Shown one piece after another: positions 49,914 through 61,781 of a DNA stretch of 64,000 bases; the stretch's first letter is position 1, and the number at the start of each line of letters is the position of its first letter. The position numbers and the translations under genes are program-made. The DNA comes from a bacterium (GTDB taxonomy: Bacteria; Patescibacteriota; Microgenomatia; UBA1406; GWC2-37-13). Under the pieces are notes generated by a model that saw nothing but the letters and a program-made list of their open reading frames with translations, ran no database searches and was not told where the DNA came from. Location of the stretch: the NCBI GenBank assembly GCA_021833625.1, contig JAKBEU010000001.1, positions 62,001 through 126,000 of the forward strand. Reading direction: 5' to 3'.

Positions 49914-49942
49914 TTGACAATTCAAGACCCTCCCATTACAAT
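49914..49942 (+). promoter_or_regulatory. Strong promoter of the PLP decarboxylase leader
   Basis: TTGACA at 49914-49919, exactly 17 bases, TACAAT at 49937-49942. This is one of the best promoter matches in the window. Transcription should start near 49949-49951, just before a small ORF. Confidence 0.75.
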
Positions 49943-49952
49943 CAACTAACAT

Positions 49953-50012
49953 ATGAAAAATAATTTATCAGTTCTTTTTATCAGGCTTATTACCCCACCA
50001 AGGGCGGGATAA
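49953..50012 (+). CDS. Possible 19-residue leader peptide
   Basis: ATG at 49953 begins a short frame (M-K-N-N-L-S-V-L-F-I-R-L-I-T-P-P-R-A-G) ending in TAA at 50010-50012. Its ATG is ten bases after the -10 box, the same spacing as at real leaderless genes here. The end of the frame runs into stem 1 of the structured leader, so translation could change RNA folding. There is no run of one amino acid that would point to a specific attenuation signal. It may be coincidental. Confidence 0.35.
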   Translation: MKNNLSVLFIRLITPPRAG

Positions 50013-50059
50013 GTGTGGTAAAAAGTCAAAACGCACCCCGCCAAAAGCGGGGCTTTTTT
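49992..50059 (+). promoter_or_regulatory. Candidate riboswitch/attenuator: pseudoknot versus terminator
   Basis: Stem 1 is ACCCCAC (49992-49998) with GTGTGGT (50013-50019), with one mismatch. Its loop contains GGGCGGG (50002-50008). GGCGGG within it can pair with CCCGCC (50037-50042), forming an H-type pseudoknot. The same CCCCGC (50036-50041) can instead pair with GCGGGG (50047-50052), a terminator hairpin followed by six Ts (50054-50059) that end at the decarboxylase ATG. Mutually exclusive folds of this kind are typical of transcriptional control. No known riboswitch class was recognised. Confidence 0.5.
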
Positions 50060-51169
50060 ATGGAAAAAATACATGCACACCTAAACAAATATATCGATCG
50101 GATGAAGTTGTTGGAAAACAAATATTTGGGTTTTCCCAACAACATGCAATATGATTATGAATTCATCACAAAGGCATGTGGTGTTTATATCAATAATGCG
50201 GGTGACCCATTCTCAACATTGTCATGGAAAAAACATTCAAAACATTTTGAGCAGCAAGTGGTTCATTTCTTTCTTGATCTGTATCACATGCCCAAAAAGA
50301 AGGGCTGGGGATATATAACTTCAGGAGGAACGGAGGGGAATATGGAAGGTATGTTTTTGGCAAGAGAGTCGTTGCCCAAGGCAACTCTTTATTTCTCAAA
50401 AGATACCCACTATTCTATATCAAAAGCGGCGAAACTCATGAGAATACATTTTGTAGAAATAAAGTCCCAAAAAAGTGGAGAAATGGACTATGCCGAATTT
50501 AACAGGGTGGTAAGTAAAAATAAAACAGGGGAAGCGATTGTTCTCGTGAATTGCGGAACGACAGTGAAAGGGGCTTTTGATGATTTGACAAAAATAAAGT
50601 CAATCTTGAAAAAAAATAAAATAAAAAGAACATACATCCATGTCGACGGTGCGCTTTCCGGAATGATAACGCCGTTTGTCAAAAAGGCCCCGTTTTATTC
50701 TTTTGACAAGGGAGTGGACAGTATAGCGATATCAATGCACAAATTTTTAGGAGTGCCGCTTATGTCAGGAATTGTGTTGGCAAAAAAAAGATACGTCGAC
50801 AATGTGAAGAACAAGGTGGAATATATCAATTCCCATGACACAACAATAACAGGTTCCCGAAACGGGCACAGTCCGCTGTATGCATGGTACGCAATAAAAA
50901 AATACGGAAAGAAAAAACTAAAGGCGGATGCAAAATTATGTTTGGAAAACGCACGGTATTTACACTCAAAATTGCAAAATGCGGGATACAATTCCCAGTT
51001 AAATGATTTTTCCAACACTGTCTATTTTGATAAACCGCACAAGGATGTCGTGTCCGACTGGCAACTTTCCTGTTATGGGGATATTGCACACGTTGTCGTT
51101 ATGCAGCATGTCGATAAAACAAAAATCGATGAATTTTTTTCCGACGTAATAAAAAAAGGGGCATCATAA
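50060..51169 (+). CDS. PLP-dependent group II decarboxylase, histidine decarboxylase-like
   Basis: A protein of 369 residues from ATG 50060. The PLP lysine is in S-M-H-K-F-L-G, preceded by H-V-D-G-A-L-S-G. The segment G-D-P-F-S, the G-Y-I-T-S-G-G-T-E-G-N-M-E-G motif and the later S-H-D-T-T-I-T-G-S-R-N-G-H match bacterial PLP-type histidine decarboxylases. Expected reaction: L-histidine to histamine, or decarboxylation of a related amino acid; substrate is not certain. GTG 50015 would extend the frame through the terminator hairpin and is rejected. The gene stands alone behind its own promoter and structured leader, suggesting ligand- or translation-controlled expression. Confidence 0.82.
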   Translation: MEKIHAHLNKYIDRMKLLENKYLGFPNNMQYDYEFITKACGVYINNAGDPFSTLSWKKHSKHFEQQVVHFFLDLYHMPKKKGWGYITSGGTEGNMEGMFLARESLPKATLYFSKDTHYSISKAAKLMRIHFVEIKSQKSGEMDYAEFNRVVSKNKTGEAIVLVNCGTTVKGAFDDLTKIKSILKKNKIKRTYIHVDGALSGMITPFVKKAPFYSFDKGVDSIAISMHKFLGVPLMSGIVLAKKRYVDNVKNKVEYINSHDTTITGSRNGHSPLYAWYAIKKYGKKKLKADAKLCLENARYLHSKLQNAGYNSQLNDFSNTVYFDKPHKDVVSDWQLSCYGDIAHVVVMQHVDKTKIDEFFSDVIKKGAS

Positions 51170-59792: not shown

Positions 59793-59869
59793 GACTGCTT
59801 AGCTCAGTTGGCTAGAGCGTCACATTGACATTGTGAAGGTCAGGGGTTCAAGTCCCTTAGCAGTCACCA
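59793..59869 (+). tRNA. tRNA-Val (anticodon GAC)
   Basis: Acceptor GACTGCT/AGCAGTC perfectly paired, anticodon stem TCACA/TGTGA with loop TTGACAT (anticodon GAC), T arm AGGGG-TTCAAGT-CCCTT. Discriminator A59866 followed by encoded CCA. Confidence 0.94.
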
Positions 59870-59945
59870 TTTTTATGATCACTTTTTTTTCCATCACAAC
59901 AACTACGTTCTCCTGAACTCGGGGAGGTTGTTTGACGGATGACAC

Positions 59946-59975
59946 AATCTCTCCCACACAGGAGAGATTTTTTTT
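59946..59975 (+). terminator. Rho-independent terminator after tRNA-Val
   Basis: AATCTCTCC (59946-59954) and GGAGAGATT (59961-59969) form a perfect 9-bp stem with a CACACA loop, followed by a run of Ts to 59975. It ends the tRNA-Asp/tRNA-Val unit; thrS has its own TACAAT box (59992-59997) just downstream. Confidence 0.8.
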
Positions 59976-60014: not shown

Positions 60015-61781
60015 ATGAACAACAAGAACAAAGAACTTGAATCAATGCGGCACTCTGCCGCCCATTTGCTCGCCTATGCCGTTACGACTTTATACCCCGG
60101 GACAAAAGTTGCCATAGGGCCCGTCGTTGAAAACGGATTTTATTACGACTTTGCATTTGAAAATCCCGTTACCACCAAAGATTTCTCACGCATTGAGCAA
60201 AAAATGAACGAGTTGAAAAAGAAGGATTTTGCCTTTACCCAAAAATGGGTATCCGTAAAAGAAGCGAAAGAACTGTTTAAAGATGAACCTTATAAAATGG
60301 AGATTATTACCGAAATTGAAAAAGGAGAACGGGAGGATTTCGGACACAAAGGGGAAGTATCCATTTATACCTCGGGGGAATTTTCCGATTTATGTAAAGG
60401 TCCGCATATCTCATCCTCAAAACAAATCGGAGTCATAAAGTTGCTTTCGCTTGCCGGAGCATATTGGAAAGGGAACGAAAAAAATGCCATGTTGACCCGT
60501 ATTTATGGAGCCGCATTTCCAACGAAAGAAGAGTTGGATGCATACCTGTGGCGTCTGGAAGAAGCAAAAAAAAGAGACCACAAAAAACTGGGAAAAGAAC
60601 TGGATCTTTTCGTATTCTCCGAACTTGTCGGTTCCGGACTTCCCCTGTGGACTCCGAAGGGCACCGTCATTCGGGAACTTCTGAATGATTTCGTATGGAA
60701 ATTAAGACGCGAAAGGGGATATCAGAAAGTAACCATTCCCCATATTACGAAAAAAGAACTGTACGAGACGTCAGGCCACTGGGCAAAATTCCAAAATGAA
60801 TTGTTCAAAATAACGACCCGTGAAGGACATGAGTTTGCAATGAAGCCGATGAACTGTCCGCATCATACGCAGATTTTTGCTCATCTCCCCCGCAGCTACA
60901 AAGACATGCCGCAACGCTATACCGAAACGACAATGGTATACCGGGACGAACAGACGGGAGAACTGTCGGGACTTTCCCGTGTCCGCTGTATTACGCAAGA
61001 CGATGCCCATGTGTTCTGTCGGAAATCACAGATAACAGCTGAGTGTTCTTCCGTGTGGGATATTGTCGATTCATTCTACAGTGCGTTCGGTTTTAAACTT
61101 GAGGTAAGACTTTCCCTTCACGATCCGGACAATATGAAAGCATATCTTGGGACACCAGAGCTGTGGACGGAAGCGGAGGATGCACTCAAAACCATCGCCA
61201 AAAACAGAAAAGTTGCGTATGTAGAAGCAAAGGGAGAAGCGGCTTTCTACGGACCGAAGATCGATTTTATAACTCACGATTCACTGGGACGTGAATGGCA
61301 GGTTGCAACAATACAACTTGACGTCAACATGCCGGACCGATTTGATCTATCCTGCATAAACGAACAGGGAGAGAAAGAGCGAATTGTCATGATCCACTGT
61401 GCGATAATGGGATCTATTGAACGCTTTACCTCTATCCTTATCGAGCATTATGCGGGAGCATTTCCGCTGTGGCTTTCTCCGGTACAGGTCGCCGTTTTAC
61501 CTATCTCCGATAAGTATATTGACTATGCAAAGAAAGTAAATGACGAATTACTGGCAAAAGGCATACGATCCGAACTAGATACGACGGCTGAGTCGATAGG
61601 AAAAAAAATAAGGACGGCAACCTTGCAAAAGATACCGTTCATGGGTATAATTGGACAAAAGGAAGCGGAGCAAAGCAGCTTATGTCTCTCCGTCCGAAAA
61701 CGGGACGGAAAAGACGGCGGATTACAAATGCTCGACTCTTTTATTAATACACTAAAACAATCAATTGAGAACCACGAGTAA
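60015..61781 (+). CDS. thrS: Threonyl-tRNA synthetase, lacking TGS domain
   Basis: A protein of 588 residues, against about 640 for the usual enzyme. It begins directly with the editing domain (M-R-H-S-A-A-H-L-L-A; C-K-G-P-H-I at about 130), so the N-terminal TGS domain is absent. The class II core is intact: K-P-M-N-C-P-H-H (zinc Cys), D-D-A-H-V-F-C (zinc His), I-H-C-A-I-M-G-S-I-E-R-F (zinc His and motif 3). The C-terminal anticodon-binding domain ends the protein. It heads the thrS-infC-rpmI-rplT-pheS series, and infC overlaps its end by 17 bases. Confidence 0.96.
   Translation: MNNKNKELESMRHSAAHLLAYAVTTLYPGTKVAIGPVVENGFYYDFAFENPVTTKDFSRIEQKMNELKKKDFAFTQKWVSVKEAKELFKDEPYKMEIITEIEKGEREDFGHKGEVSIYTSGEFSDLCKGPHISSSKQIGVIKLLSLAGAYWKGNEKNAMLTRIYGAAFPTKEELDAYLWRLEEAKKRDHKKLGKELDLFVFSELVGSGLPLWTPKGTVIRELLNDFVWKLRRERGYQKVTIPHITKKELYETSGHWAKFQNELFKITTREGHEFAMKPMNCPHHTQIFAHLPRSYKDMPQRYTETTMVYRDEQTGELSGLSRVRCITQDDAHVFCRKSQITAECSSVWDIVDSFYSAFGFKLEVRLSLHDPDNMKAYLGTPELWTEAEDALKTIAKNRKVAYVEAKGEAAFYGPKIDFITHDSLGREWQVATIQLDVNMPDRFDLSCINEQGEKERIVMIHCAIMGSIERFTSILIEHYAGAFPLWLSPVQVAVLPISDKYIDYAKKVNDELLAKGIRSELDTTAESIGKKIRTATLQKIPFMGIIGQKEAEQSSLCLSVRKRDGKDGGLQMLDSFINTLKQSIENHE

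Follow-up and report, generated by a model that had tools for sequence, protein, structure and literature searches.

A predicted leader-peptide attenuator upstream of a decarboxylase gene, and leaders of the same build before amino acid genes in Roizmanbacteria

Introduction

Leader-peptide attenuation is a classical mechanism. In the enterobacterial leaders (trpL, thrL, pheL, and ilv/leu; RF00513, RF00506, and RF01859), a short open reading frame (ORF) has its control codons in strand 1, and alternative 1:2, 2:3, and 3:4 hairpins lead to an intrinsic terminator before the gene. Among other bacteria, Narunsky et al. (PMC10272879) described the ilvB-II motif (in Corynebacterium) and the ilvB-OMG motif as upstream ORFs for branched-chain amino acids, for which attenuation was proposed. 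Naville and Gautheret (2010, PMC2965389), who knew of leader-peptide attenuation from Proteobacteria and Actinobacteria, added the Firmicutes with the hisS and hisZ leader peptides of bacilli. These extend leader-peptide control beyond the first two phyla, but Patescibacteria lie outside the coverage of that paper. In the part of the literature that our search covered, there was no report of attenuation or leader peptides in CPR, Patescibacteria, Microgenomates, or Roizmanbacteria, and a leader-peptide switch for the amino acid genes of Roizmanbacteria seems to be previously unreported.

Here we describe a leader in a 64,000-nucleotide stretch of DNA (the window; C2:62001-126000 of a 1.1 Mb genome). 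The nearest relatives of this genome in our collection are metagenome-assembled genomes named Candidatus Roizmanbacteria, and its lineage is Microgenomates, within the Patescibacteria/CPR. The leader has the ORF, the strand 1 control codons, the alternative hairpins, and the terminator of the enterobacterial systems, but it scores far below the gathering thresholds for membership in those sequence families, its host is a patescibacterium, its ORF begins no more than about 10 bases from the -10 box, and the decarboxylase gene that it precedes is not a biosynthetic gene for the amino acids that would be sensed. With the ilvB-II and ilvB-OMG motifs it shares an ORF rich in branched-chain codons ahead of a gene; those are different RNA motifs, and they precede ilvB rather than a decarboxylase. 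Small H-type pseudoknot riboswitches are similar in that the loop of a hairpin can pair with the 5' arm of a terminator, but the leader in the window has a conserved ORF and no conserved first stem.

Results

A conserved leader ends at the start codon of a decarboxylase gene

The elements of the locus are as follows (all on the + strand).

49914..49942, +: promoter, with TTGACA (49914-49919), a 17-nt spacer, and TACAAT (49937-49942); 11 of 12 consensus matches
49953..50012, +: ORF for the putative leader peptide, 19 codons and a stop (MKNNLSVLFIRLITPPRAG), kept in the sister species
49971..49991, +: predicted control codons 7-13, V L F I R L I (from the masked-fold scan in three species)
49974..49996, +: strand 1, the 5' arm of the protector hairpin, which overlaps the control codons (minimum-energy and alignment folds)
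50002..50025, +: strand 2, the 3' arm of the protector hairpin, which includes the antiterminator parts GGCGGG (50003-50008) and GUGUG (50013-50017)
50032..50042, +: strand 3, which pairs with strand 2 via CGCAC (50032-50036) and CCCGCC (50037-50042)
50036..50059, +: intrinsic terminator, with a stem of 50036-50041 with 50047-50052 and a U-tract at 50054-50059
50060..51169, +: gene for a PLP-dependent decarboxylase, the putatively regulated gene (PF00282, NF002748), whose ATG at 50060 adjoins the U-tract

An earlier note on this DNA, made from the letters alone, had pointed out a near-perfect promoter, a 19-codon ORF, and a terminator ending at the ATG, and each of these is present as described. 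Both promoter hexamers and their 17-nt spacing are retained in two sister species, but the sequence of the spacer is not. Given the promoter match (rather than mapped transcript ends), transcription would start near 49949, so the 5' untranslated region of the leader ORF would be only a few bases long. The leader peptides of the sister species are MKNNLSVLFVRLITPQRAG and MKNNLSVLFVRLITPTRAG. The terminator is kept in these species as well, where it has a 5-pair stem and a longer U-tract.

The leader is real and under strong selection. Across 49949-50059, 99 and 101 of 112 positions in the two sister species are identical to the window (88-90%), as compared to just 30% and 40% of the fourfold sites of the decarboxylase gene in the same two species; the intergenic spacer is about 60% identical to the window. 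By DNA similarity, this is the only copy of the leader in its own genome, and the conserved core of the leader was not found in a scan of viral contigs. More distant decarboxylases of the same family (44-47% identity) lack the leader, so its association with the decarboxylase is restricted to three closely related species.

The downstream gene encodes a PLP-dependent decarboxylase of the histidine/serine decarboxylase group. It matches NF002748 (histidine decarboxylase) with 443 bits, above the cutoff of 305, so the label of "histidine-decarboxylase-like" that it had been given was fair, but among solved structures the score is slightly higher for a serine decarboxylase (314 bits) than for a histidine decarboxylase (295 bits).

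We considered whether the leader is just a small transcript that ends at the terminator, with the decarboxylase expressed from another promoter. The terminator does sit between the promoter and the decarboxylase gene, whose ATG has no evident Shine-Dalgarno sequence. However, the terminator touches the start codon, which leaves no space for a promoter behind it; on this strand, the only further site resembling a promoter (49935-49964) is weak and likewise upstream of the terminator; and both the leader RNA and the ORF are conserved. We consider a plain small transcript to be highly unlikely. We also rejected a frameshift fusion of leader and decarboxylase: the frame is open upstream of the gene in the window, but in the sister species a one-base indel before the ATG shifts the relative frame.

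Folding predicts three exclusive structures

The leader is more stable than all 200 of 200 dinucleotide shuffles (z = -4.0). In its minimum-energy fold, 49974-49996 pairs with 50002-50025 to give a long hairpin, with the terminator downstream. To mimic the advance of a ribosome, we removed the 5' end of the leader stepwise and refolded the remainder. With nothing masked, the protector hairpin and the terminator both fold. If strand 1 is masked, then GGCGGG (50003-50008) pairs with CCCGCC (50037-50042), which is aided by pairing of GUGUG (50013-50017) with CGCAC (50032-50036), and the terminator no longer forms. Positions 50036-50041 are shared by strand 3 and the 5' arm of the terminator. If strand 2 is masked as well, the terminator is regained. 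This agrees with the claim, made in the earlier note, that a loop can pair with the 5' arm of the terminator to the exclusion of the terminator. These exclusive 1:2, 2:3, and 3:4 pairings are common to all three species. None of the pairs, however, shows a double compensatory change among these species, which counts against the model; within the genus there are only one-sided changes, such as U-G to U-A in the GUGUG:CGCAC part of the antiterminator. Thus, by folding, the default state (untranslated or fully translated) is predicted to terminate and a stall over strand 1 is predicted to read through. In a scan that placed the ribosome front 16 bases from the P-site codon, readthrough was predicted for codons 7-13 in the A site and for no others, and this is the same in all three species, in which these codons read V L F I R L I or V L F V R L I.

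These folds are what would be expected from ribosome-mediated transcription attenuation. In such a mechanism, RNA polymerase would start near 49949 and a ribosome would enter the 19-codon ORF at once (the start site, translation of the leader, and the signal sensed in the cell are all inferences). With ample charged tRNA for the middle codons, the ribosome would reach the stop codon and cover strand 2, and the terminator would form before the ATG of the decarboxylase. If the ORF is not translated, the 1:2 hairpin and the terminator would form. A ribosome that waits at codons 7-13 would cover strand 1 and leave strand 2 free for the 2:3 pairing, which would block the terminator and allow the decarboxylase gene to be transcribed.

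One of the two mechanisms in the earlier note was control by a ligand, as in small riboswitches of the H-type pseudoknot kind, and a GGGCGGG loop is indeed able to pair with the 5' arm of the terminator in all three species. The first stem of this pseudoknot (49992-49998 with 50013-50019) has six of its seven pairs in the window, but it is not the stable fold, and just four and three of the seven pairs are retained in the sister species. Stem 1, for which the note had called for a check of covariation, is thus broken in both sister species. Nor does the leader belong to an Rfam class. No Rfam covariance model for a T-box or another known riboswitch matched it, and none of its Rfam matches reaches the gathering score. 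Three of the four sub-threshold matches are amino acid leader families: Phe_leader (23.9 bits versus a gathering score of 55), Trp_leader (15.5 versus 41), and Thr_leader (14.2 versus 55).

An arrest peptide of the SecM or TnaC type was attractive because the peptide ends in Arg-Ala-Gly (RAG) in all three species (with a synonymous change from AGG to CGG), and RAG is reminiscent of the arrest motif of SecM. The nascent chain would then hold the ribosome at the stop codon. However, a ribosome held there would cover strand 2, which would favor termination. Also, homologous leaders end in RAD or RAE, and in further leaders the sequence lies in other frames or after the stop codon. What is conserved is therefore the RNA sequence GGGCGG and not the peptide, and we rejected the arrest peptide as highly improbable.

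Leaders of the same build have control codons that match their genes

We built a covariance model from the three decarboxylase leaders only and ran it on 96 related genomes. There were matches at E <= 0.1 in 41 of the 96 genomes. At the matched loci that we read, we found leaders with this architecture ahead of ilv, leu, ser, aro, tyr, lys, and thr genes. (Genes were named by NCBIfam where those models were run and otherwise by reading the sequence.) The leaders include:

MKNIGSSFIIVLLIYRA, before ilvE and ilvB
MKNNFVIIALVLIHPV, before ilvB
MKNNSSLIYVLLINHA, before ilvE
LNLLLNL, before leuA
CSSSS, before a phosphoserine phosphatase/phosphoglycerate dehydrogenase fusion (Ser, serA)
FYFYF and YFYF, before DAHP synthase
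YYYY, upstream of tyrS
KKTKK, before lysA
KSKK, upstream of lysS
WQNW, before a TrpB-like enzyme
TTTT, before thrS

In a catalogue of 39 leaders, 156 of the 329 predicted readthrough codons are cognate to the downstream gene. If the gene labels are shuffled, 57 +/- 10 are cognate, with a maximum of 97 in 5000 shuffles. In most of the catalogued leaders, the ATG is 6-13 bases after the -10 box, so the ORF would begin nearly at the 5' end of the RNA (as judged from promoter matches, not mapped ends).

Part of the catalogue was put together by eye, and a test whose rule ignores the sequence content is therefore cleaner. We used thrS, which is also present in the window:

59877..59918, +: ORF for the Thr leader (MITFFSITTTTFS), with Thr codons 8-11 within the predicted readthrough window
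59948..59975, +: putative attenuator terminator of thrS, 59948-59954 with 59961-59967, then U8
60015..61781, +: thrS, threonyl-tRNA synthetase (TIGR00418, 674.7 bits)

At each thrS locus we required a short ORF and a terminator, regardless of which residues were encoded, and we defined a Thr cluster as at least three Thr in five residues. A leader ORF with a terminator was found at 15 of the relatives' 30 thrS loci (including the locus in the window). All 15 of these leaders contain a Thr cluster, while any other residue clusters in at most two of them. The corresponding count is 1 in 28 comparison loci, which are mostly from other patescibacterial classes (p = 7e-5, Fisher test). By sequence and by the predicted folds, thrS in the window is probably regulated by its Thr leader. 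This attenuator (59877-59975) begins about ten bases after a tRNA gene (59793-59866), and tRNA processing may supply the 5' end of the thrS leader.

With cognate control codons in the leaders of relatives and no conservation of stem 1, the decarboxylase leader very probably acts by ribosome-mediated attenuation of transcription, as in the trp and ilv systems, and not as a pseudoknot riboswitch. In the relatives, the same pairing accompanies leader ORFs whose control codons match the downstream gene, which leaves the ligand-binding pseudoknot extremely unlikely. Thus, the two mechanisms put forward in the earlier note fared differently: the cognate leaders of the same build strongly support the idea that translation of the short peptide exerts the control, while the ligand-responsive pseudoknot is disfavored by its unconserved stem and the absence of a gathering-level Rfam match. 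We do not rest the claim of attenuation on the homologous leaders in genus g8, where the predicted readthrough window is poor (codons 13-14 in G038) or absent (G009) in the leaders scored.

The decarboxylase leader is probably of the branched-chain type

Judging from its codons and from its likeness to the ilvE leaders of relatives, the decarboxylase leader appears to be of the branched-chain type, with Phe and Arg codons sharing the window. Five of the seven readthrough codons are for branched-chain amino acids, a bias that is no more than moderately unlikely by chance (about 1%, given the codon usage of the genome). The most likely signal is a shortage of charged branched-chain tRNA, to which Phe or Arg could contribute. 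The enzyme family points to His or Ser as the substrate, and neither is what the control codons encode. Furthermore, when we searched the genome of the window with tblastn, using ilvE, ilvB, leuA, DAHP synthase, serA/serB, and lysA from relatives, there were no matches. A branched-chain signal therefore lacks an obvious biosynthetic logic in this genome, and the decarboxylase does not belong to the biosynthesis of the amino acids that the leader would detect.

The control codon of the same attenuator might instead be AGG, a rare codon for Arg, at position 11, or Phe at position 9, or the leader might respond to a general slowing of translation. At 4.6 per thousand, AGG is one of the least used sense codons in this genome; it falls midway through the readthrough window and is retained in all three species. 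Phe at position 9 is also kept in homologous leaders from another genus. In those leaders, though, the Arg codon is replaced by Gln or Leu, and the predominance of branched-chain codons and the resemblance to ilvE leaders such as MKNNSSLIYVLLINHA also argue against these other signals. We consider them unlikely but plausible, and we favor the branched-chain signal.

Leaders before other genes

In another genus, a homologous leader (LSVLFIQLI) lies after the end of a serS-like gene and before a different gene, or with no gene on its strand, which suggests that leader cassettes change genes. One homologue of the decarboxylase leader (L127, G038:C23, 280-580) is followed, after its terminator, by a second leucine-rich ORF and by no gene in that orientation; the opposite strand carries an ORF of 1356 residues. 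This leader may be an orphaned attenuator.

Some of the putative attenuators are in tandem. On the minus strand of G000 C1 (from about 223718 down to 221179), two of them, with leaders MNSRFSFIIVKQLCLTRRGA and MKTPNPNIFGVIIFVFCLILRL, follow the end of a serS-like gene and precede a 737-codon ORF (the gene in L083), whose protein has no Pfam match. On the minus strand of G000 C2, near 421940, a Tyr-type leader (MSINHAATYYYPAQ) with a terminator is followed by the start of a second Tyr-rich leader, then by a gene of no assigned family, and then by a PLP enzyme; in L112, Tyr leaders are likewise followed by a related gene.

Other leaders also point to the amino acid that a gene might answer to. 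At L109 (G054:C116), a leader with three Met codons (MKIDNSNITSKQMMMDNALRRGVIL) precedes a gene for a SAM hydroxide adenosyltransferase, which suggests control by methionine. Leaders with His clusters (SHHTLH in L121 and SSHHP in L051) precede aminotransferase-like and nucleoside hydrolase-like genes, respectively. In L108 and L114, the leaders FFFFF and LSVIGILLI precede genes without Pfam matches, each of which is followed by a peptidase-like gene (as identified by eye). These could reflect starvation-induced scavenging of peptides.

Discussion

A broader picture, which we regard as evenly balanced between right and wrong, is that Roizmanbacteria run much of their amino acid economy via near-leaderless leader-peptide attenuators, sometimes in tandem, and that these cassettes have moved to non-cognate genes, including the decarboxylase and several proteins of unknown family. 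The decarboxylase would then be turned on when branched-chain tRNAs are short, in a species without detectable branched-chain biosynthesis. If true, this would be a response to tRNA-charging stress in a patescibacterium. The leaders before thrS, ilv, leu, ser, aro, tyr, and lys genes in one patescibacterial family suggest that reduced genomes sense their supply of amino acids via their own ribosomes. Because the control codons would name the amino acid that a gene answers to, such leaders could give a cheap prediction of the roles of genes in these mostly unculturable bacteria.
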